Shown piece by piece: positions 828 through 21,737 of a stretch of 24,271 bases of DNA. The DNA comes from a virus. The notes under the pieces were generated by a model, which was not told the DNA's origin, did no database searches, and saw only the letters and a program-made list of their open reading frames with translations. A program made the position numbers and the translations under genes. Position 1 is the stretch's first letter. Each line of letters begins with the position of its first letter. The stretch is taken from positions 1 to 24,271 of IMG/VR virus record IMGVR_UViG_3300027763_000237; one strand, written 5' to 3'.

Positions 828-2153
828 ATGGCAGAAGAAGTAGAAGATATTATATGTAGTCTATGCGACCAAATCATAGATGATGAGACGGAACGCCGAT
901 TCGGTGACGGCTCTATTGCTTGTGAGAATTGTACCGTATGGTGCGAGTCTTGCGAGGAATTGACCAGCACAGACGACTCGATTAGTGACGGCAGTAGTTA
1001 CTATTGTCAATCTTGCGGTAAGTATTGTGAGCGTTGCAATAGTGCCTTCTCAGGTGACGATTACTTCGTTGAAGATGAGTCATGGTGTGAGTATTGCTAC
1101 GAGAATAACACATTCTATTGTGAGCCTTGTGGCACTAGTTACAGCGACAGAAGTGACTACTATCATATAAATAATGATACATGGTGTGATGACTGCACTA
1201 GCCGACACGCATGGTACTGTAACGATTGTGACCAGTATAATCGTGAAGGTGATGAGTGTAGCAACTGTGAGAATACACAGAGTGGCAACCCATCTATCGT
1301 TGGTCGTGAGTGTAATTGCCGTAAGGTTATACACGACTACAACTGCAAGCCACCGCTAGTATTCCATGGCGAGTCCAAGAGTGGGCTTTATATGGGGCTA
1401 GAGTTGGAGACACAGATTCAAGGCGGTAGCCTAGACGGTGCATCCGAATACGCGACCAACGCTCTACTAGAAAATAAAATCGGTATCATCAAGCATGACG
1501 GCAGTATCAGTCGTGACGGGTATGACGGGTTCGAGATAGTGACACAACCACATACTCACTTGCAATATCGAGAACATAGTGATACACTATGGAATATTAT
1601 CAACACGCTACGCCTAGACTATGGTGCTAGGTCATGGGATACCAAATCCTGTGGCATACATATCCATGTCTCTCGCGCTGGCTTCTCAAGTGGTGCGCAC
1701 ATGCACCGCTTCATATCATTCGTGTATTCTAATGCAGAATACATGATGAAGTTCGGTGGTCGCAAGTCCGATTATGCTAGGTTCAATGATGTCTATACCT
1801 TCAACCAGTATGACCAACCAGTCAAGTCGTTCAAGCACAAGTTAGCAGACCCACGCCGTAGCAATACGGAAAGATATTCTGCGGTCAATACGCAGAATCA
1901 AGGCACGCTAGAACTTAGGTTCTTTCGTGGTACTATGAATGTCAGCACTATTCTATCGGCACTTGACTTAGCGCAAGCCATGGTAGAATACACTAGAGAC
2001 CTACGACTTGACGAGGTCAAGTTAGGTGCGCTAGACTGGACATGGTTCGTTGATTATGTACGAGATAACAACGGACTATATCCCGACCTATACTCCCGAA
2101 TCTATAAGGTATCGGGCGTAGATATAACCAACCCAACACTAGAGAATGCATGA
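828..2153 (+). CDS. Cys-rich amidoligase-like protein
   Basis: A 441-residue, two-part protein. Residues 10-174 hold a long series of CxxC pairs with intervening Trp, Tyr and acidic residues, like tandem LIM/zinc-ribbon units. Residues about 186-395 match the glutamine-synthetase-fold amidoligase family (Pfam Amidoligase_2 type). Visible motifs are GLELE with Glu192 and Glu194, HDGSI at 213-217, GFEIV with Glu226, CGIHIHVSR with His268 and His270, and TLELRFFRG with Glu352 and Arg354. These are typical nucleotide/metal-binding positions of that fold. Family members are predicted to form amide bonds between a carboxylate and an amine, with ATP. AGGAAGGGAG precedes ATG 828. The next gene, 8 bp downstream, is a glutamine amidotransferase that could supply ammonia. 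The substrate is unknown. Confidence 0.8.
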   Translation: MAEEVEDIICSLCDQIIDDETERRFGDGSIACENCTVWCESCEELTSTDDSISDGSSYYCQSCGKYCERCNSAFSGDDYFVEDESWCEYCYENNTFYCEPCGTSYSDRSDYYHINNDTWCDDCTSRHAWYCNDCDQYNREGDECSNCENTQSGNPSIVGRECNCRKVIHDYNCKPPLVFHGESKSGLYMGLELETQIQGGSLDGASEYATNALLENKIGIIKHDGSISRDGYDGFEIVTQPHTHLQYREHSDTLWNIINTLRLDYGARSWDTKSCGIHIHVSRAGFSSGAHMHRFISFVYSNAEYMMKFGGRKSDYARFNDVYTFNQYDQPVKSFKHKLADPRRSNTERYSAVNTQNQGTLELRFFRGTMNVSTILSALDLAQAMVEYTRDLRLDEVKLGALDWTWFVDYVRDNNGLYPDLYSRIYKVSGVDITNPTLENA

Positions 2154-2161
2154 GGTGATGT

Positions 2162-3016
2162 ATGTGTATCCTTGTGGTGTGTGAACCCAATAGCACACCA
2201 ACCAAGACAGACCTACACAATGGTGCGTGTAGTAATCCTCACGGTTATGGCTTTGCCATTATCGCTGGAGATACTATCATATCAGAGCGTAGTATGTCTG
2301 CTAAAAAATCTATTGCACGATTCTTGGAATTGCGTAAGCAATATCCTAACGGCTACGCCATGTGGCACGCACGATACGCCACGCATGGTGTTAAGAACGA
2401 GGCTAACTGCCACCCATTCAAGGTTGGCAATTCAGACTTGACATACCTAGCACACAATGGTATACTAGATGTAACGATTGAGAAATCAGATAAGCGTAGC
2501 GACACTAGAGTATTCGCAGAGGATACCTTGCCACTTATGGGTGGCGTGTCGGTACTTGACAATGACACAGTATGGACTATGGTTAGCAAGTGGGCTAGTG
2601 GTAGCAAGATATGTATCCTAACCTTAGACCCTAGTGCCAAGCACCAAATCTACCTAGTCAATGAGAACTTAGGTACATGGGACAATGCTGGTATATGGTG
2701 GAGTAATCAGTCGCATAAGCGCACCACATATACCACCCCCTCTACAGTATGGCAAGCACCAGCAAGGGACTTAGACAAGGCAGAGCAACTAGCCTATGAC
2801 TATGCACTCAAGCACTACTATCAAGAAGAAGGGGAAGAAGTAATAGACCTCTGCCCTAACTGCGAGACACTCGTAGATATGCATGAGAATCCATACTACT
2901 GCAACATGTGTGAGATATGCTTCGACTGTGATACCAGTATCATAGACTGCCTATGCTACACACCCGATAGACAATGGTCAAGCAAGAAGGACTATGACCT
3001 GTTCAGCTCACTATAA
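2162..3016 (+). CDS. Class II glutamine amidotransferase with Cys-rich tail
   Basis: A 284-residue Ntn-hydrolase of the GATase type II family. The start at ATG 2162 puts Cys at position 2, the expected N-terminal nucleophile after Met removal, behind the ribosome-binding sequence GAGGTGAT. Family motifs follow in order: HARYATHG (69-76), NCHPF (82-86), LAHNG (96-100) and SDTR (113-116). Together they indicate hydrolysis of glutamine to glutamate and ammonia. The C-terminal 55 residues carry four Cys pairs (231/234, 247/250, 253/256, 263/265), which the catalytic family normally lacks. No synthetase domain is fused, so the upstream amidoligase-like protein is the natural acceptor partner. The Cys-rich parts of both proteins may mediate their pairing or recruit a target. 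Confidence 0.85.
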   Translation: MCILVVCEPNSTPTKTDLHNGACSNPHGYGFAIIAGDTIISERSMSAKKSIARFLELRKQYPNGYAMWHARYATHGVKNEANCHPFKVGNSDLTYLAHNGILDVTIEKSDKRSDTRVFAEDTLPLMGGVSVLDNDTVWTMVSKWASGSKICILTLDPSAKHQIYLVNENLGTWDNAGIWWSNQSHKRTTYTTPSTVWQAPARDLDKAEQLAYDYALKHYYQEEGEEVIDLCPNCETLVDMHENPYYCNMCEICFDCDTSIIDCLCYTPDRQWSSKKDYDLFSSL

Positions 3017-12589: not shown

Positions 12590-12759
12590 TAATCGTCCTC
12601 TGAGTTTCTTAGTTTGTATGTTACTCCCCAAATAATTGAGGAGATGCCAATAGCATACCCAACAACCGTTTTGGCAGAACCGTCAAGGACTACCCAGGCA
12701 ATGAACATGCCGAGGAGAGTCCACAATTGATTTACTACGTCTGAAAAGAACTTCTTCAT
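12589..12759 (-). CDS. Two-helix membrane mini-protein, holin candidate
   Basis: A 56-residue protein with a Lys N terminus (MKKFF), a first membrane helix at about 11-26 (QLWTLLGMFIAWVVL), a short charged turn, a second helix at 31-47 (TVVGYAIGISSIIWGVTY) and a charged tail. Both ends overlap neighbours: ATGA with the Pro-rich gene at 12756-12759 and TAATG at 12587-12591. This layout and tight coupling are typical of a lysis cassette. It could be a class II holin working with the next membrane protein. Confidence 0.6.
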   Translation of the reverse strand: MKKFFSDVVNQLWTLLGMFIAWVVLDGSAKTVVGYAIGISSIIWGVTYKLRNSEDD

Positions 12760-14192
12760 GGTTTCCTCCGATAAGCTGCAGCGCCAGCAGCAGCGGTTAC
12801 TGCAGCCTGTCCAGCAATTTGACCTACAATAACTGCAGCAACAATGGTCTTCTCAGACTCTGTTCTTTCTTCAGAGCTCATGTCCGCACCGATAGAGCCT
12901 AGTGCTAAGAGTGCTTGTGCTGGGTCAGTAAAGATTGCGTTGATTAATTCTGCTGGGTTCTCAAGGACTACCAGCGCAGCAGCAACTTCTGCTGTGATAA
13001 CAACTTCGTTTCCGTTCTCATCTTCACGAACTTCAACTGGTGTCTCAGGTGGCAAGTCAGCATAGGTAAGTCCAGCTTCCTGGATTGCTTGTGCTGTCAC
13101 GGGTTCCCCCTGTGCTTGCTCAATGATTGCTTGTGCTACTACCTGCTTCTCTTCTTTGGTAGCGTTCTCGCTTACCTTTATAGGTGGTTCTTCTGGTTGT
13201 ACAATTGGCTCAACCATAGGAGGTTCAGGTGCAATATCAACTACAGGTTTTATCTCAGGCTCTGGAGAAGGTTCTGGTTCAGGCTCGGGCGCTACTGCAG
13301 GCGGTTCCTCAGGAACAGGCGCAGGCTCAAGTACGGGTGGAGCTTCTTCTACGGGCTCTGGAGCGAGTTCAGCAACAGGCTCTGGCGGTAGAGTTTCTAC
13401 TGGAAGAGGAGGAAGAGGTTCTTCAGCGACAGGCACAGGAGCAGGCTCAGCGACGGGCACAGGCTGGGGAGCAGGCTCGGGCTGTGGAGCTGGTTGCACA
13501 GGAGCTGGAGTTGGTTGAGGTTCCACCGCAGGCGGGGCTGGAGGTACTACAGGTACGGGTTCAGGAATTGGAATAGGTGCAGGTTGCACAACTACGGTTG
13601 ATGTATCAGAAAGGACAGTAGATGTCTCTTGATTTACAACAGTTGGAGTATCTACTTGTTGAGTTGCAGTCTCGCTTGGAGAAGGACTCGGAACTGTGGT
13701 TGCAGTATTCGTATCTGCTAGAGCAGTCGGAGTTGGACTCGGAGAAGGAGTTGGCGATGGCGAAACGGATGGTGTTGCAGTCTCTGATGGGCTTGGTTGC
13801 GGACTCGCTGTTGCAGTTGGAGTCTCACTTGGGGATGGAGATGGAGTAGGAGTAGGTGCAATACCATTGTAGTATCGTCCTATACCTGTGTAGTTATCAC
13901 TTAGATAAGTTGTCCACTCACCAATAAATCCACCTTCGCAGAACAATCTTGCGATGTCACCCTTGCCATTGAAGAAAGGGTTGTCGGCATTCCAGCCAGT
14001 CATTGCAGTATGAGTTTCACCTGCAGGGTTGGCACAGATGATTGTTACATCTCTAACCATTAACTCTGGTGAAGTTGCGTTAGCAACTGGACTCCAGAAG
14101 AATGATGTGCCTAGAACTAAAAAGAATACTGCTAACTTACTTCCTGTGATTTTCGCAGAGGATGAGGTAAATCTGGTCAACGCGTTGTTCAA
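12756..14192 (-). CDS. Secreted Pro-rich, membrane-anchored surface protein
   Basis: About 478 residues. The N-terminal signal peptide is hydrophobic at 18-34 and is probably cleaved after ANA near 39. A small domain with Cys53 and Cys85 follows, which may form a disulfide. Residues 112-190 are Pro/Ser/Thr repeats (PTPSPSPSET type) and residues 200-330 are Pro/Ala/Val/Glu repeats. A helical segment (340-440) comes next, and a final hydrophobic Ala/Gly helix ends in RRKP. This is the build of a wall-spanning protein held in the host membrane. TTG 14192 or TTG 14180 must be the start, inside the upstream gene; no ATG is available. It lies in the lysis region. Wall penetration, spanin-like help in lysis or blocking of adsorption are all unproven options. 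Confidence 0.7.
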   Translation of the reverse strand: MNNALTRFTSSSAKITGSKLAVFFLVLGTSFFWSPVANATSPELMVRDVTIICANPAGETHTAMTGWNADNPFFNGKGDIARLFCEGGFIGEWTTYLSDNYTGIGRYYNGIAPTPTPSPSPSETPTATASPQPSPSETATPSVSPSPTPSPSPTPTALADTNTATTVPSPSPSETATQQVDTPTVVNQETSTVLSDTSTVVVQPAPIPIPEPVPVVPPAPPAVEPQPTPAPVQPAPQPEPAPQPVPVAEPAPVPVAEEPLPPLPVETLPPEPVAELAPEPVEEAPPVLEPAPVPEEPPAVAPEPEPEPSPEPEIKPVVDIAPEPPMVEPIVQPEEPPIKVSENATKEEKQVVAQAIIEQAQGEPVTAQAIQEAGLTYADLPPETPVEVREDENGNEVVITAEVAAALVVLENPAELINAIFTDPAQALLALGSIGADMSSEERTESEKTIVAAVIVGQIAGQAAVTAAAGAAAYRRKP

Positions 14193-14361: not shown

Positions 14362-16341
14362 TTATACAGTCCTAATTGTTACGTTAATTACTCCACCGAA
14401 TCCGCTGAATCGCTTATCAGGTGGTGTCATACGGGAGAATGAAATCTGTTCGATAACTGCTTGACGAGATTCGCCAGTAGTTAAGTCCTGCCAGGTAAGA
14501 ACGTCACCTTCTTCTTCAATACCTTCTAGGGCTAGAATCTTCTCGAAGGCTTTGCCTTCATAGCCAATCATTGAGTTGTATCTATCTGTCTCTAGGTCGT
14601 AACAGTAGATAGGGAACTGGATGACACGCTGGCGTGGAGTAGCAATGGTTGCTTTAGCCTGGTATCCCTTGAAGATTGGACCAAGTGATGTTGTTGTTGC
14701 ATCACGATAAAGAATAAACTTATAGGCTACATACTCTTGCGCTGTAGCAGGAGATGAGGTTCCAACTTCAATAGATGGAACTGATGAGTCGTATGAGATG
14801 TGGTCATACTCAACACCATCTTTGTCTACGGTTTCAAGAGTCATAGAACCATAGGTAAAGTCACCGCGTCCAAGAAGACGCTTAAAGTTCTTAGGCTCAA
14901 GAGTTCCATAGCGGATGTTACCTGTAGTTACATATCCAGATGTACGAAGAGTTGATTCATCCTCGATATAGATGCCACCATTTTCAGATGATGCATATGC
15001 TGTAGTGAATACAAGTCGGTCAGTACCATTAGCAAAAGCACAGCCAGTAGTTACGTGCCCTGTAACACCATCCATATAAAGGTCGTTAGCCCACGCAAAG
15101 CGTAGAGTTTCTAGTTCATTAGATAGGTCAATGCGGATTACTCCAGCCTCACCTGCTACACCAGTTGCACACCACACATAATGGTCACGTGCTGCAAAGT
15201 CGTAGCAAGGCTGTGATGTTTCTACAATCAGTGGACCGTAGTTAAGTGAACCATCTTGGTCAGATACTGCTGCCACACGAACACCCTTATTAGTACCAAT
15301 CATCATATAACCTAGGTAGTAATAAATCTTGTGGACAATCTCACCGACTGGAAGTTCTGCTGCAACTACCGCTGATGTAAGAGTAGGCATTACTCCAGCA
15401 GTAGATAGTGTGAATTTTAGGATTGTTGACTGAATGCCATTGTAACCAGAAACATAAATTGCAGGACCCGATGCAGCAATAGATGTATATACGTGGCTTG
15501 ATGAAGGGTGAGTATATATAGGAGATGGTAAGGATGATGCAGATGAAGATAGTTCATAAATCTTATTATTTGCACATAGAACAATACGTTCTTTTACATA
15601 TTCCATTGTTGCATTTGTAAGCAAAGTTCCAGCATCAAAGAACATAGTTGTCTCAGCATCTGAACTAGATGCAGTTAATGCTTTCTTATACATATACATT
15701 CTTGCTGGAGTTCCAGGTCTATTGGTTACAAAATATGCGTATGTTCCATCATCACAAATTGCATATACTGGGTAATCTGAACCAGAATTATAGTCTTGGA
15801 AATGTGTCACAGTTCCATCTACTGCAATCTTATCTACATCATATTCATCGTGAAGTAGAACTCCAGATGTAGAACCCCATTTGATAGAACGTATGTGCTG
15901 CTGTGCTACGCCATTAGATGCAATTGGTCCAGTGGTAAGATGAGTAGATGTGCAAGATGAGAGCAGTGTTACCTGACCTTTAGTCCAGACATCTAGCCCC
16001 TTGCTGTCAGCAAAGCGGTAGTGTCCATTCTCATCAGTAGTTGCTGGGTCATAGAATTTAATTCCAGAACCAGAGTGGAACGATGCTTGGCTACGAATCC
16101 ACCAACCAGTCAGAGACTGCTCGCCAGGTTCAGTACCATTGTCGAACTGTTCCTTACGAAAGGGTGCAGTCTGACGGACATAAGGGCGTGAGTCATTGAT
16201 GGCATAGAAGAATGGGAGTCCACCAATGGCTACGTCATAAGACATATCGGTGTTCTGCCAGATTGCTGTAGATGAAACTACACCAACGTCAACTGCGATA
16301 GAGCGTTCGGCTCTACCGTCCGTGATGTCCCGACCCGCCAT
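14362..16341 (-). CDS. Large beta-rich tail protein
   Basis: A 659-residue protein with many short beta strands and repeated aromatic/Gly turns, especially in residues 130-430, which look like a beta-propeller (segments such as GTYAYFVTN, KIYELSS, AIYVSGYNGI and YMMIGTNKGV at regular spacing). The C-terminal 150 residues form another beta domain. Size and place after the fibre and paralogue cluster suggest a minor tail or tail-tip protein that touches the host surface. There are no enzyme motifs. GGAGG precedes ATG 16341. It is the last structural gene before the lysis region. Confidence 0.65.
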   Translation of the reverse strand: MAGRDITDGRAERSIAVDVGVVSSTAIWQNTDMSYDVAIGGLPFFYAINDSRPYVRQTAPFRKEQFDNGTEPGEQSLTGWWIRSQASFHSGSGIKFYDPATTDENGHYRFADSKGLDVWTKGQVTLLSSCTSTHLTTGPIASNGVAQQHIRSIKWGSTSGVLLHDEYDVDKIAVDGTVTHFQDYNSGSDYPVYAICDDGTYAYFVTNRPGTPARMYMYKKALTASSSDAETTMFFDAGTLLTNATMEYVKERIVLCANNKIYELSSSASSLPSPIYTHPSSSHVYTSIAASGPAIYVSGYNGIQSTILKFTLSTAGVMPTLTSAVVAAELPVGEIVHKIYYYLGYMMIGTNKGVRVAAVSDQDGSLNYGPLIVETSQPCYDFAARDHYVWCATGVAGEAGVIRIDLSNELETLRFAWANDLYMDGVTGHVTTGCAFANGTDRLVFTTAYASSENGGIYIEDESTLRTSGYVTTGNIRYGTLEPKNFKRLLGRGDFTYGSMTLETVDKDGVEYDHISYDSSVPSIEVGTSSPATAQEYVAYKFILYRDATTTSLGPIFKGYQAKATIATPRQRVIQFPIYCYDLETDRYNSMIGYEGKAFEKILALEGIEEEGDVLTWQDLTTGESRQAVIEQISFSRMTPPDKRFSGFGGVINVTIRTV

Positions 16342-16829: not shown

Positions 16830-17099
16830 TTAGATAACTAGTGTTGCTGCTTCGGCTTCGGTAAGTGGTGTTCCTGCTACCAACTTAGCCTTAGCTGATG
16901 TCTTAAGTGCAGCAAGTGCTTCTGCTGCTGCATCTTCTTCAGCCTTGCGTGCTGTTGCTGCTTGAGCGTCTGCTTCCATCTGTGCAATTTCAGCATCAGT
17001 AAGTTCGATGATGCTTTCAACGCCAGTCGAGCAATCAATCTCAATACGAGTTGGACGTGTCATTGTGGTTCTCCCTAGTAGTTTATTGAATAGTGCCAT
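16830..17099 (-). CDS. Tail-associated small helical protein
   Basis: An 89-residue protein whose ATG 17099 overlaps the upstream stop (TAATG). ATG 17063, with GGGAG before it, gives a 77-residue alternative that begins MTRPTRIEIDCSTG. The pattern RIEIDCSTGVESIIELTDAEIAQMEADAQ, followed by an Ala/Glu/Lys-rich helix, is common in small proteins next to phage tail fibres (tail-fibre assembly or virion accessory type). The helix may be a coiled coil. The function is not proven. Confidence 0.6.
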   Translation of the reverse strand: MALFNKLLGRTTMTRPTRIEIDCSTGVESIIELTDAEIAQMEADAQAATARKAEEDAAAEALAALKTSAKAKLVAGTPLTEAEAATLVI

Positions 17100-17617
17100 T
17101 AACTTGATTTAATTCCATATAGGTAGGCGGTTGAGTATTGATAAAAAATTGCGCTTGTAGTATTTGAACTTAAAGTTATTGAAGTTATTGCTGCGGTAGC
17201 CGTAAGTAAGCCTGCAAATAATTTTGAATAAGCGGTTGTTGCGTTGTTTTCTTCTACTCCATCACTTGAAAATGATTTAGCAGTTGAACCTGTATAATTT
17301 GGAATATAAATTTCGGCGTTGCCAAATGTGTTAGCAGTTCTTGAAGCATTTTGATTTACTGAATAACCAAAAACACCTTGCGATGTTGAACTATCTGTTG
17401 CGCTTTGAGCAAGTGCCCCAGTTCCTTGTAATCTAATTGCAGTATAACCCGTTGTGCTTGAATTGAATTTAAGAAATGCCTGATTATCATCGCCATCTCT
17501 AATACTTAATTTTAACAATAAATCTGTATAAGTTTGAGGAATACTAGAAAACGTGATACTAGAAACCCCACCAGAGCCAACTGTGCTAGACGATATAAGT
17601 TCATATGTGTTTGCCAT
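17099..17617 (-). CDS. Paralogous virion protein, copy 3
   Basis: A 172-residue beta-rich protein with many Ser, Thr and Asn residues. It shares with its two upstream neighbours the pattern SxxFSSIPxTYxDL near residues 20-35, then LKFNSSTTGYTAIRLQGTGALAQS and a C-terminal TAYLYGIKSS. The spacing of conserved blocks is the same in all three, so they are tandem paralogues. The fold may be a jelly-roll or lectin-like sandwich, placed beside the tail fibre. Receptor binding or fibre decoration is the likely role. The gene is visibly more AT-rich than the fibre gene. Its ATG overlaps the stop of copy 2. Confidence 0.65.
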   Translation of the reverse strand: MANTYELISSSTVGSGGVSSITFSSIPQTYTDLLLKLSIRDGDDNQAFLKFNSSTTGYTAIRLQGTGALAQSATDSSTSQGVFGYSVNQNASRTANTFGNAEIYIPNYTGSTAKSFSSDGVEENNATTAYSKLFAGLLTATAAITSITLSSNTTSAIFYQYSTAYLYGIKSS

Positions 17618-18120
17618 TATGCCGCCGCGATTCCGTAAAGGGTCATTGTTGTGCCAACTGCAAAATTTGCACTTGCATCATTACCAACTTGAATTGTAGT
17701 AATCGCAGCAGTTGAACGCCACAAGCCTACAATTGCTTCTGCTGCATCAGCAGGGGCATCGCCTCGCGTAATGACTGTTTTATATGTTGTTGAATTTGCG
17801 TAGTTCATAATGTTGGCTCTGTTCATTGTTCTATTTCCTGAACGCCAAGTAGCCTGTCGGTCTATTCGTAGAAATGTCACATTTGATTCTCTTTGACTTT
17901 GTGCAGCAGTTCCAGTTCCATAAACATTTGTTGAAGAATAATTGGAACCAGTATCACCATTCAAACGAATCCAGGCATCAAAACCAGTTGAATCAGCTCC
18001 ACCATTGACAATCAAAATGAGGTCTGTGTAAGTGCTAGGAATGGAAGAGAAAGTGTAAGAAGTTGCAACACTTGTAAAAGTAGTCGTTGCAATCGGCGTG
18101 TAAGTTGAACCTGCTGCCAT
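17617..18120 (-). CDS. Paralogous virion protein, copy 2
   Basis: A 167-residue protein. The shared pattern YTFSSIPSTYTDLIL at 22-36 is followed by WIRLNGDTGSNYSSTNVYGTGTAAQS and ends TMTLYGIAAA. About one half of the conserved positions match copy 3 by eye, and the inner loops differ strongly. It starts 6 bp after copy 1 with GGGG as a weak ribosome-binding site. The same role as copy 3 is expected. Separate copies may form different fibre subunits or alternative binding tips. Confidence 0.65.
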   Translation of the reverse strand: MAAGSTYTPIATTTFTSVATSYTFSSIPSTYTDLILIVNGGADSTGFDAWIRLNGDTGSNYSSTNVYGTGTAAQSQRESNVTFLRIDRQATWRSGNRTMNRANIMNYANSTTYKTVITRGDAPADAAEAIVGLWRSTAAITTIQVGNDASANFAVGTTMTLYGIAAA

Positions 18121-18126
18121 TGTCTG

Positions 18127-18714
18127 TTACCCCTTAATTCCGTATAGTGCAAATTTACTATTTGTTGCAAAATTTGAACCTAATGTTTTTCCATATCCGC
18201 CAGTTGCCGAATGAATTGTAACTGTATTTACGGCATTGGTTGATTTCCAAAGACCAGATGTTAAATAAACAAACTGTTGGGCAACAGCATTTGTATCTAT
18301 GCCAGACAAGGTTCTAGTAACTTTATATTTATTTGTGTTTTGATAATCTAAAATATCTATAATAAAACTTCCTGGAGTTGTTGAAGCCGTAGAATCTTGA
18401 GAGTATAAAAGTCTAATATTTGAATATGAACCTTGCGCTGCTACGTCATCAGAGCCCGCAACGCTTCCATTTCCATATAAGGTATGAGCATAATAGTTTG
18501 CTGCACTATCAGAGTTAAGTCTGAGTACTGCAGAAAAATCTGTAGCGGTAGGAATAAAAGTTCCTCTAATTTGCAAATGTTTGTATGTGCTAGGAATTGA
18601 TGAAAATGTAGCACTTGAAGCATTGGAACCTAAAGTTACAGTAGCAATAGATTCAAATGAACTTGATGCCGCTGCAGTAAGCGAGCCAATTAATCCGCCA
18701 AGAATACCCGACAT
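18127..18714 (-). CDS. Paralogous virion protein, copy 1
   Basis: 195 residues from ATG 18714, which overlaps the fibre gene stop (TAATG); an upstream in-frame start at 18744 is less likely. It has a hydrophobic Gly/Leu-rich start ([18 protein letters not shown]) not present in copies 2 and 3. The shared TFSSIPSTYKHLQIRG block follows, then LRLNSDSAANYYAHTLYGNGSVAGS and a closing KFALYGIKG. The extra N terminus might attach it to the fibre or to membrane. It is probably a fibre-tip or decoration protein. Confidence 0.65.
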   Translation of the reverse strand: MSGILGGLIGSLTAAASSSFESIATVTLGSNASSATFSSIPSTYKHLQIRGTFIPTATDFSAVLRLNSDSAANYYAHTLYGNGSVAGSDDVAAQGSYSNIRLLYSQDSTASTTPGSFIIDILDYQNTNKYKVTRTLSGIDTNAVAQQFVYLTSGLWKSTNAVNTVTIHSATGGYGKTLGSNFATNSKFALYGIKG

Positions 18715-20789
18715 TAAGTTAACCCATTTCCGCTGATAATCCAAGTAGTAGATGCAATTTTAACTGCAGTAGCCATACCAAATGCAGCAAGTGTACGAGA
18801 ACCTGTAGTTCCTGGTCCTGCTAGATACATAGTGTCAGTTGTAATTGCAATAGTTACTGTTGCACCAGAGCCAGCAATGAATGTAACTGTTGTTCCAACT
18901 GGTAGTGCTAAGTTGGCATTTGAATCAATGGTGATTGTACGAGTTGCAGTTGAGTAGATGTGCTTACCAGCATCTGCAGCAGCAACTGTAGCCGCGCCTG
19001 TTGTTGTAGCATTTTGAGGCAAGCCCATATAGCCAGCACCAACTGTAGCGGTAGATGTTGTACCAGCAGCAACTGTTGGAATAGTTACTGTACCTGTAAA
19101 CGTAGGTGAGGCTAGTGGAGCCTTAGTTGAATCACTTGGAACTGCAGTAGCGTTAGTTAAATTAATTGCAGAAGGAGTACCAAGGTTAGGTGTTACCAGC
19201 GTAGGGCTGGTAGCAAAGACCAATGAACCTGAGCCAGTCTCGTCAGAGATAACACCAGCAAGTTCTGCAGATGTAGTGGCAGAAAGTGTGGATAACTTAT
19301 CTGTTGTTACTACCAAAGTCTTAGTTGATGGAATGGTTGTTCCATTAATAGATGTAGCAGTGGCTACGCCAAGTACAGGGGTAACAAGTGTTGGGCTTGT
19401 ATCTACTACAAATTTAGTACCAGTACCTGTTTGAGAGGCTATAGAGGTTGCGGAACCAACAGATGTGATAGGACCAGTAAGGTTGCTAGGTGCAAGACTT
19501 ACACTATTAACATAAGCAGTAGTGGCAATTTTTGTACTATTGTCAGAAGATGATGGAGTAGGAGCAGTAGGAATTCCAGTTAGAGCAGGAGAAGCAAGAG
19601 GTGCCTTAGTCGCTAACGCTGTAGTAATTGTTGTTGAGTAACTTGCATCATTAGCAAGAGCAGCAGCCAACTCATTAAGAGTATCAAGTGCTCCTGGAGC
19701 ACCACCGATAAGGTCAGTTAATTCTGTTTGAACATACGCTGTTGTAGCAATTTGAGTTGTATTGGTGTTTGCTGCAGCGGTTGGTGCTGTAGGGGTTCCA
19801 GTAAGTGCTGGGCTAGCCAAAGGTGCATATGTACTAGATGCTGTGGCTGTAGCCAATTTAGAATCTAGTTGAGTCTGAATTGCTGAAGTTACGCCATCTA
19901 CATACCCAATCTCAGTTGATGAGACGGTTGATGAGATACCAAGTTTTGTCCAGTCAATTGCTGCTGCTGTATTAATCTTAGCATTAGTAATTGTATCGTT
20001 AGCAATATCAGTTGCAGTGATTGCACCAGTAAGGGCTAACTTAGTCTTAGCAATAGCAGCAGATGCGTTAATGTCAGCATCTACAATAGTGTCGCTGGCA
20101 ATCATTGTGCCAGTAACTGTGCCTGTATCGCTAGTCTTAATCAAAGTTGCGCTAGTTGGGATAGTTGTACCATTGATGCTTGTGGCTGTTGCTACTCCAA
20201 GGACTGGGGTTACAAGAGTAGGGCTAGTCGATAGGACTGTTGCACCTGAACCAGTTGATGTTGTTACACCAGTTCCGCCATTGGCTACTGGAAGAGTTCC
20301 AGTCACACCAGTTGTTAGTGGCAAACCAGTTACGTTTGTCATTACACCAGATGCTGGAGTGCCGAGTGCTGGGGTTGTAAGTGTTGGGCTAGTTAAAGTT
20401 TTGTTGGTCAAGGTCTGAGTGTTGGTTGTACCGACTACAGCGCCTGTTGCACCGTGCCCTGTTGTTGCTTCAATATGAGTGTTGGCTTCGCGGTAGTCTC
20501 TACCGATTGCCATATGTCGCACTACTGCGCCAGCAGAGTGAGCCTGTCCTGTTGAACCGTCAATGGCACGGGTGATGGTTAGTGTGTTAGTACTAACCGC
20601 CGTGACATCTACAATTTCTTCAAGCGCTGTATCTGGGTCGATGACAACTGTAAAGGTTTCTCCTGCGGAGATGGTTACACCACCAAGGAGTGCTGTACCT
20701 GATACGACAGTAGCAGATGTACCAGATGAGGATAGTGCGCCAGTCAGCGTTGTCTGCTGAGAGCGAGATGAATATTTTCTAGTTGTCAT
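18714..20789 (-). CDS. Repetitive tail fibre protein
   Basis: A 691-residue, extremely Thr/Ala/Ser-rich protein with classical fibre repeats. [20 protein letters not shown] occurs near residues 189 and 475, with shorter versions near 134 and 528. [15 protein letters not shown] occurs near 322 and 396, with a third related [10 protein letters not shown] near 557. An IATTAYV segment follows the first two. Residues 1-110 form the probable virion-attachment domain and the last 100 residues a distal domain ([20 protein letters not shown]). It is probably trimeric and binds the host surface together with the paralogous proteins encoded next. AAGGACCAGCA precedes ATG 20789. Confidence 0.85.
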
Positions 20790-20798
20790 TGCTGGTCC

Positions 20799-21737
20799 TT
20801 ATCGGCGGGAGTAGTGAATACGGGGAGGATAGTTCTGCTGTTGTGCCTTGGTCTCTTCGTTAAGGCGCTGTGTGTAAAGAGCATAGAGTTGCTTGGTCGC
20901 ACTCTGTGATGCACCGTATGGGCGCTTAGAGTCAGTCTCATCCGCCTGTGGGCTGACCTGTGCTGCACGTGCTGGGTCAAGGAATGAGAGCAGACGATAG
21001 GCTGTACCAAGAATCACTACGTCCCGCGTTGATTCTGGTAGACCTGTTACTGTTGTGTAAACTTGTGAATTACTTGTGAAAGGTTCTGGGTCAGTAGCGT
21101 AGACAACCTTGACTGTACGACCAGAGACAGGTGCTTCGCCTAGAGTAATTGTCTGAACCTGGTCAGTGCCAGATGTATAGCCAAATGCCTCAGGGTTTGC
21201 TGATGGGTCTAAATCCCACTTACGAATTGGAACCCACTCTTTGGTTGGTCCAATGCTTTGCCACGAAACTGTCAAGATATTCTTGATGTTCAAGTTAGCG
21301 AAAGCGTAGGTAGATACCGCAGCGTTGAAAGTAAATGTTGTTGACTTTACCGCAAAGATGTTTGCTCCAAGGGAGCGGATAGTGTCATTGATTGCACGCT
21401 TGACGCTGAAGCGTGGGAAGGTAGGAGAGATAGTTACCTTTGCATCAGCAGTGTGAGTTGCTGCAGTTGTACCAAGGTAGCCACGACCATAGGGAGATAC
21501 TGTCGCTGTGTTAGCAACACGGTCAAATGAATCTACCCAGAGCAACTCTTCATCAATCTCAAGGATACCCTTGCCTACTGAGTCAGTTGACCCAAGGCTG
21601 AGAACAAGTGGCGATGCACTTGTTGATGTAGTCGTAGTTACTGCAGATGTAATGTAAGTGCTACGGTCCTGCTGGAATGTATATCCTGCAAGATTGACAA
21701 GCACTTCATCAATCATATTAGTTAGAGTAGTAGTCAT
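20799..21737 (-). CDS. Neck/tail structural protein
   Basis: A 312-residue protein with alternating beta and alpha segments. RFSVKRAINDTIRSLG near 110-125 is a helix common in head-tail connector or tail-tube adaptor proteins. The C-terminal part (RDVVILGTAYRLLSFLDPARA, then a helical QLYALYTQRLNEETKAQQQ) is also typical of a neck protein. It comes directly before the tail fibre gene and overlaps the small gene upstream by TAATG. The family is not certain. Confidence 0.6.
   Translation of the reverse strand: MTTTLTNMIDEVLVNLAGYTFQQDRSTYITSAVTTTTSTSASPLVLSLGSTDSVGKGILEIDEELLWVDSFDRVANTATVSPYGRGYLGTTAATHTADAKVTISPTFPRFSVKRAINDTIRSLGANIFAVKSTTFTFNAAVSTYAFANLNIKNILTVSWQSIGPTKEWVPIRKWDLDPSANPEAFGYTSGTDQVQTITLGEAPVSGRTVKVVYATDPEPFTSNSQVYTTVTGLPESTRDVVILGTAYRLLSFLDPARAAQVSPQADETDSKRPYGASQSATKQLYALYTQRLNEETKAQQQNYPPRIHYSRR

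Follow-up and report, generated by a model that had tools for sequence, protein, structure and literature searches.

We find that three adjacent genes next to a phage fibre gene probably specify one lectin-like fibre-tip adhesin, each gene contributing a different chain to a 1:1:1 heterotrimer that would be anchored through its first chain and diversified by recombination. Across related phages, these genes keep a fixed order, and each position in the array (slot) has an identity of its own. Only slot 1 carries an anchor peptide, and the arrays are linked to a domain at the fibre tip. Furthermore, the triplet replaces a glycine-rich adhesin as a whole, and single slots are swapped between phages. 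We infer a physical heterotrimer that would dock on the fibre and bind a receptor.

The window, by which we mean the whole stretch of DNA analysed here (an IMG/VR virus record of 24,271 bases), encodes a WhiB gene, which points to an actinobacterial host. On its minus strand, an adaptor-like protein (SU10_adaptor, phrog_7578; 20799..21737) is followed by the fibre gene (18714..20789), which has PHROG tail fibre matches down to E 2.5e-40, by copies 1, 2 and 3 of the family studied here, by an 89-aa gene (16830..17099) that lies directly 3' of slot 3 and is retained in several relatives, and by a tail protein (phrog_11667; 14362..16341). The adaptor-like protein and the tail protein are conserved and form the opposite borders of a variable cassette. 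Slot 1 (copy 1, 18127..18714, ATG at 18714) encodes a protein of 195 aa with an anchor peptide and a beta-sandwich domain, slot 2 (copy 2, 17617..18120) one of 167 aa and slot 3 (copy 3, 17099..17617) one of 172 aa, the latter two without anchor. Stop and start codons overlap as TAATG at three junctions, namely fibre to copy 1, copy 2 to copy 3 and copy 3 to the 89-aa gene. An Endonuclease VII/HNH-type gene (PF02945; 16384-16815) lies on the plus strand, opposite to the cassette direction. A 98% identical copy of it is found in locus L218, where the adjoining tail protein is only 67% identical, and this suggests that the endonuclease gene is mobile.

The three copies have a pairwise identity of 31–39%. 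Copy 2 matches copy 1 at E 1.3e-16 and copy 3 at E 1.0e-12, and their likeness is therefore far above chance. An earlier note on this DNA had described three adjacent genes with common blocks at equal spacing; indeed, the blocks TFSSIPxTYxxL, N...Y...G.G..A.S and LYGI are in register across all three minus-strand ORFs. The alignment of the three copies also confirms its remark that only copy 1 has an N-terminal extension. The segment is AT-richer than the fibre gene, as had been noted as well, with a GC content of 36.2, 42.3 and 35.3% in copies 1 to 3 compared to 45.2% in the fibre gene and 45.0% in the whole window. Among the fetched loci, the triplet is AT-richer than the remaining locus in 108 of 115 three-gene arrays. 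At third codon positions in the window, GC is low in copies 1 and 3 (18%) and 26% in copy 2, near the 24% of the fibre gene. The fibre and all three copies recur, with proteins 100% identical, on another IMG/VR contig (L164, sample 3300009180). When the window copies were scanned, the best E-value was 0.04 against Pfam and 0.084 against PHROG; the Pfam scan detected neither PF21722 (glycine-rich gp38-like adhesin) nor the collar domain PF07484 or a gp37 tip in them. DUF2541 was considered as a family assignment and rejected, with no match of the Pfam model at E<=1 in the three window copies and the three copies of the isolate phage E7.

Copies 1 and 2 were modelled. The AF2 model of copy 2 is an 11-strand sandwich (pLDDT 91.2, pTM 0.87), and that of copy 1 has 12 strands and an unstructured anchor (pLDDT 84.5, pTM 0.81). 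Both are all-beta sandwiches that match the same PDB entries. We looked for three different folds, which the earlier note had named as the outcome contrary to its claim, and did not find them: copies 1 and 2 are alike, and copy 3 is clearly related to them by sequence. The PDB matches are weak and tied. For copy 2 they include a GH32 C-terminal domain (Z 8.1), galectin-9 (Z 7.2) and the Pgp3 CTD (Z 6.8), and for copy 1 the Pgp3 CTD (Z 7.4) and the BC2L-C N-terminal domain (Z 6.8, rmsd 2.8 over 108 residues). With Z no higher than 8.1, galectin-like, GH32-like and TNF-like sandwiches are not told apart. None of the structure matches listed is a clear TNF or C1q superfamily match above background, and Foldseek against the PDB gave no match at E<=0.001. 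The Pgp3 CTD and the BC2L-C N-terminal lectin have trimeric, TNF-like folds. Relatives of the domain in BFVD occur on proteins annotated as 'collagen triple helix' or Stf repeat, and collagen and Stf-repeat shafts are trimeric. From the fold relatives of the models, the BFVD relatives and the distant single-copy members described below, a trimer is likely. Some positions are near-invariant within a slot and differ between slots; for instance, at copy-2 position 37 arginine is present in 99% of slot 1 proteins. Such slot-specific invariant positions are expected of an asymmetric assembly.

The family is rare in isolate phages, where tblastn detected two records of phage ct2KA10 and a partial match in the tail fibre of Erythrobacter phage L02, and common in environmental viral contigs, with at least 527 matching stretches. 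Among the records searched by tblastn, none from a mycobacteriophage matched the copies. Of the two ct2KA10 records, OX376640 represents Planktophila phage LanE43AprE7 (E7, locus L320), which has a 1-2-3 triplet and a tail protein about 70% identical to that of the window; OX376641 is presumably its sister phage F5. A scan of bacterial genomes gave one locus, L322, on a contig in a Polynucleobacter MAG. This contig encodes a WhiB-like protein (by eye) and is thus probably a misbinned actinophage. Distant single-copy members of the family follow segments that look fibre-like by eye. Starting from a profile of the three copies, iteration over 319 loci and the window yielded 812 family ORFs. As most loci were fetched by similarity to the copies, they always contain at least one member each. 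A set fetched through the tail gene is free of this bias and comprises 38 distinct cassettes, from the 42 of 80 loci that have both adaptor and tail gene. Here, 24 cassettes have no member, six have three, four have six and four have one or two.

When analysing the arrays, we merged those sharing more than 30% of their 25-mers and counted an array as complete with at least 500 bases after it and at least 700 (slot order) or 900 (run size) bases before it. Delimited by gap length, 159 distinct complete runs contain one (13 runs), two (4), three (128), four (5) or six members (9). Most of the odd-sized runs are triplets with gaps or triplets with distant members, and the six-gene arrays are two triplets. 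Copy number grows by whole triplets, to three or six and hardly any other. Slot profiles assigned slots in 150 distinct clusters that are complete, and 149 of these have the order (123)n (139 single, 10 double), after members below 60 bits or with a slot margin below 15 had been set aside as distant; four complete clusters had distant members only. The exception is a lone member called slot 2 (L118). Since the slot profiles were trained on the same arrays, we fetched 80 further loci, and there the order was found in all 40 complete clusters. One ORF (L272:978-2354) is a natural fusion of slot 3, an Fn3-like stretch (by eye) and slot 1 of the next triplet; in its alignment, all invariant and near-invariant columns fall on the second domain.

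The three slots are also distinct in phylogeny. A tree was built from the 438 domains that 146 triplets provide, with members labelled by their position in the array only. On it, the slots form three pure clades of 146 domains each (support 0.995 for slot 1, with 0.963 and 0.929 for the other two). The slot label changes twice on this tree, compared to at least 190 times in each of 200 shuffles. Proteins of the same slot have a mean identity of 45% across arrays, whereas different slots within one array have 34%. We thus conclude that the triplication is older than the spread of the arrays. Inter-slot distances correlate at only 0.50–0.56.

This result changes how the neighbouring paralogues are to be read. 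The earlier note had seen duplicated, fast-diverging genes, and adjacent paralogues with unlike loops do suggest an ordinary, recent tandem duplication. However, the slot-pure clades, the fixed order in 146 triplets and the copy numbers of three or six show that the duplication is old. For the surveyed arrays, the slot-pure tree refutes a recent duplication, and we give this explanation next to no credence.

The slots also differ at the N-terminus. Slot 1 typically has an extension of 13–34 aa, compared to 0–5 aa in slots 2 and 3. In the window this anchor peptide comprises about 19 aa (18658..18714, minus strand) and has no counterpart in slots 2 and 3; in the monomer model of copy 1, residues 1–19 lack secondary structure, with pLDDT blocks of 52 and 64. 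At its C-terminus, the window fibre has a tip domain of 125 residues (18714..19091, minus strand), which we propose as the docking site of the slot-1 anchor. In 112 of 137 arrays, the gene immediately preceding slot 1 terminates in a homologue of this domain. The homologue stops 3–4 residues before the stop of that gene, and the overlap with the array is usually one base. The tip domain is missing upstream in 25 of the 137 arrays, including all nine six-gene arrays, and in the isolate E7. Anchors in arrays with the tip domain upstream are more hydrophobic (median best 9-residue hydropathy 1.97, compared to 1.23 without it; p 3.5e-9) and have fewer basic residues. A hydrophobic-anchor pattern matches 51 slot-1 proteins, one glycine-rich protein and three unrelated ORFs, and a polar-anchor model matches 24 slot-1 proteins, two glycine-rich proteins and one other protein; neither matches slots 2 or 3. 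All nine six-gene arrays (L093, L102, L106, L136 and others) carry polar anchors and are preceded by a gene of 110–122 aa, which is phrog_1276-like in L085. The product of this gene may hold the polar anchor.

The anchor is shared with another type of adhesin. Locus L085 is closely related to the window, with a DNA identity of 94% in the adaptor-fibre region (1,596 bases compared) and of 92% where the tail gene begins (341 bases). It has no copy of the family and encodes in its place three glycine-rich proteins, each with an anchor. These swapped-in proteins match PF21722, as do those of L148. We compared ten cassettes chosen for display, together with E7, and found all three anchors in nine of them, using a regular expression that missed four anchors differing by a residue or two and gave one false slot-2 match inside the domain and two matches to unrelated ORFs. 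Three of the nine carry three glycine-rich adhesins (L148, L085, L114). The other six carry two glycine-rich adhesins and one whole 1-2-3 set, with the triplet in third position in L147, L338, L339, L354 and E7 and in first position in L347. In all nine, every glycine-rich adhesin has its own anchor. The third anchor is on a glycine-rich protein in L148 (MAVISIKNKTKSGSLLVGN) and on slot 1 in L147 and L338 (MAVISIKNKTKSGSLLNGN). Because the third anchor carries either a glycine-rich protein or slot 1, the triplet counts as one unit. Each of the three anchors has its own consensus and carries a glycine-rich adhesin or a triplet (L148, L338, L320, L347 and others). The three ordered anchors may themselves be a heteromeric mount. 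Some arrays have about 270 extra C-terminal residues on slots 2 and 3 alike; in L095, the end of these long slots is a glycine-rich adhesin domain (PF21722 at E 5.4e-14 in slot 2, phrog_2295 in both).

Triplets differ from each other in single slots. We compared 258 distinct triplets, for which exact duplicates had been merged first, so that unchanged triplets are undercounted. Among 40 triplet pairs with some slot at 85% identity or above, 37 have another slot below 60%; of the remaining three, two have all slots at 85% or above and one has the other two slots intermediate. For instance, L058 and L063 share 96, 46 and 49% identity in their slots, with 85% DNA identity in the upstream flank and 97% in the downstream flank. 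Closest to the window is L165, whose slots are 40, 77 and 55% identical to copies 1, 2 and 3, respectively. Judged by these sequences, triplets diversify by slot-for-slot recombination, although a part of what looks like swapping could stem from chimeric metagenome assembly. The diversity comes from the swapping of single slots between phages and not from new tandem duplication. The survey of copy number and recombination that had been suggested earlier bears out recombination, in the form of slot swaps; the ordered triplets speak against recent duplication.

The preferred mechanism is as follows. Copies 1 to 3 would be three different chains of one fibre-tip adhesin, present 1:1:1, each with a beta-sandwich domain. 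With its N-terminal anchor peptide, slot 1 would attach the complex to the distal fibre end, and slots 2 and 3, lacking an anchor, would reach the virion through slot 1 only. The variable segments of the three slots would form the receptor-binding face, and recombination would exchange single slots for their counterparts in other phages, so that combinations arise. Several findings count against this mechanism, namely the inter-slot distance correlation of only 0.50–0.56, the weak fold matches, the arrays and the isolate E7 that lack the tip domain upstream, the lone member L118 and the possible chimeras among the swaps. A role of the triplet in host recognition is very probable. The proposal of receptor-binding diversification thus stands with respect to the fibre module and the unevenness of the cassette between close relatives, and falls with respect to duplication as the mechanism.

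Alternatively, each slot could form its own homo-oligomer, with three distinct adhesins kept for three receptors or positions. The slots do recombine independently, and free swapping would be equally expected if the three proteins never touch. Where single-copy relatives are fused to fibre segments, one gene makes the whole product, so that the domain can homo-oligomerise, and the glycine-rich adhesins of the same cassettes are encoded by separate genes, each with its own anchor. However, all these glycine-rich adhesins are anchored whereas slots 2 and 3 lack an anchor in every surveyed array, one adhesin is replaced by one triplet and not by one slot, and copy number increases by whole triplets only. 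We therefore consider separate homo-oligomers unlikely. That slots 2 and 3 are chaperones for the folding of slot 1 or of the fibre is less plausible still, to the point of being very improbable. Small genes 3' of phage fibres are often assembly factors, such as T4 gp38; yet slots 2 and 3 have the same domain as slot 1, vary and swap as much as slot 1 does, and can bear glycine-rich adhesin domains. The triplet could also be a heterotrimer with a structural role, as an accessory of the baseplate or fibre and not the receptor-binding part. A precedent is gp35/36/37 of mycobacteriophage Mysterious, described as a beta-sandwich heterotrimer and baseplate accessory in the available text of a preprint (PMC13252515). 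Against such a role, the triplet lies in the most variable segment between close relatives, its slots are swapped, and it replaces or carries glycine-rich adhesin domains; furthermore, the region of E7 and F5 is a variable island that its authors link to host recognition, according to the text available (PMC10202952). A purely structural accessory is thus rather improbable.

Three-gene heterotrimeric tail parts and anchored glycine-rich adhesins are both already known. As far as its text was available, Mysterious resembles the window in having three consecutively numbered beta-sandwich proteins in an actinobacterial phage, whereas its baseplate accessory differs from the fibre-tip role proposed here. 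The tripartite tail proteins of virophage DSLV2 are reported to form a 1:1:1 heterotrimer that binds host cells (PMC12724248). Both families have three consecutive genes and position-specific clades, the latter seen here in tree and gene order. In contrast to the window copies, which lack such a Pfam match, the DSLV2 proteins combine a collar domain (PF07484) with a needle tip that resembles T4 gp37; a one-chain anchor and swapping with glycine-rich adhesins, both present in the window family, are not mentioned in the available part of that paper. In S16/T2-type phages, gp38 caps the fibre end via a hydrophobic N-terminal attachment part and has variable distal loops (PMC6851490, as available). 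Similarly, slot 1 of the window has an anchor peptide and its gene adjoins the fibre, where attachment to the fibre end is putative, and in three-anchor cassettes the same anchors bear glycine-rich domains or triplets. However, gp38 consists of one chain only and has a polyglycine sandwich, as described in the part of the source available, whereas the window encodes three chains, for which a lectin-like sandwich is predicted. For E7 and F5, 'three proteins encoding DUF2541' have been reported in a variable island (PMC10202952). The E7 triplet belongs to the same family with the same 1-2-3 order as the window, also in a variable island; in the text available, that paper only names the three proteins and proposes no unit, anchor or trimer. 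The available text of PMC6802176 and PMC11945409 contains no fibre-tip heterotrimer. In the literature searched, which mostly excludes subscription papers, we did not find the family described as a unit, nor the single anchor, the one-for-one adhesin replacement or the slot-wise swapping.

Phage fibre tips are usually regarded as homotrimers or single chains. We see about even chances that the arrays encode a combinatorial tip, in which slot-locked chains assemble 1:1:1 on one anchor, are mutually compatible across many environmental phages and can each be exchanged alone, while the whole unit is exchangeable with glycine-rich adhesins on shared, ordered anchors. If true, host range would depend on how three interchangeable parts are combined. 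With a slot-locked three-gene tip and recombination chain by chain, abundant uncultured aquatic phages would have a combinatorial way of changing host specificity. This reading also proposes a function for a family that no Pfam or PHROG model matches here, and two isolates, the Planktophila phages E7 and F5, are available for testing it.

Lastly, two further regions of the window stand out. On the plus strand, an Amidoligase_2 gene is followed by a class-II glutamine amidotransferase-like gene (828-3016), possibly a pair for peptide or cell-wall modification. On the minus strand, near the endolysin gene, a long Pro/Ser/Thr-rich protein (12756-14192) has a signal-peptide-like start, a hydrophobic C-terminal segment and a basic tail, and its identity to relatives is very uneven.
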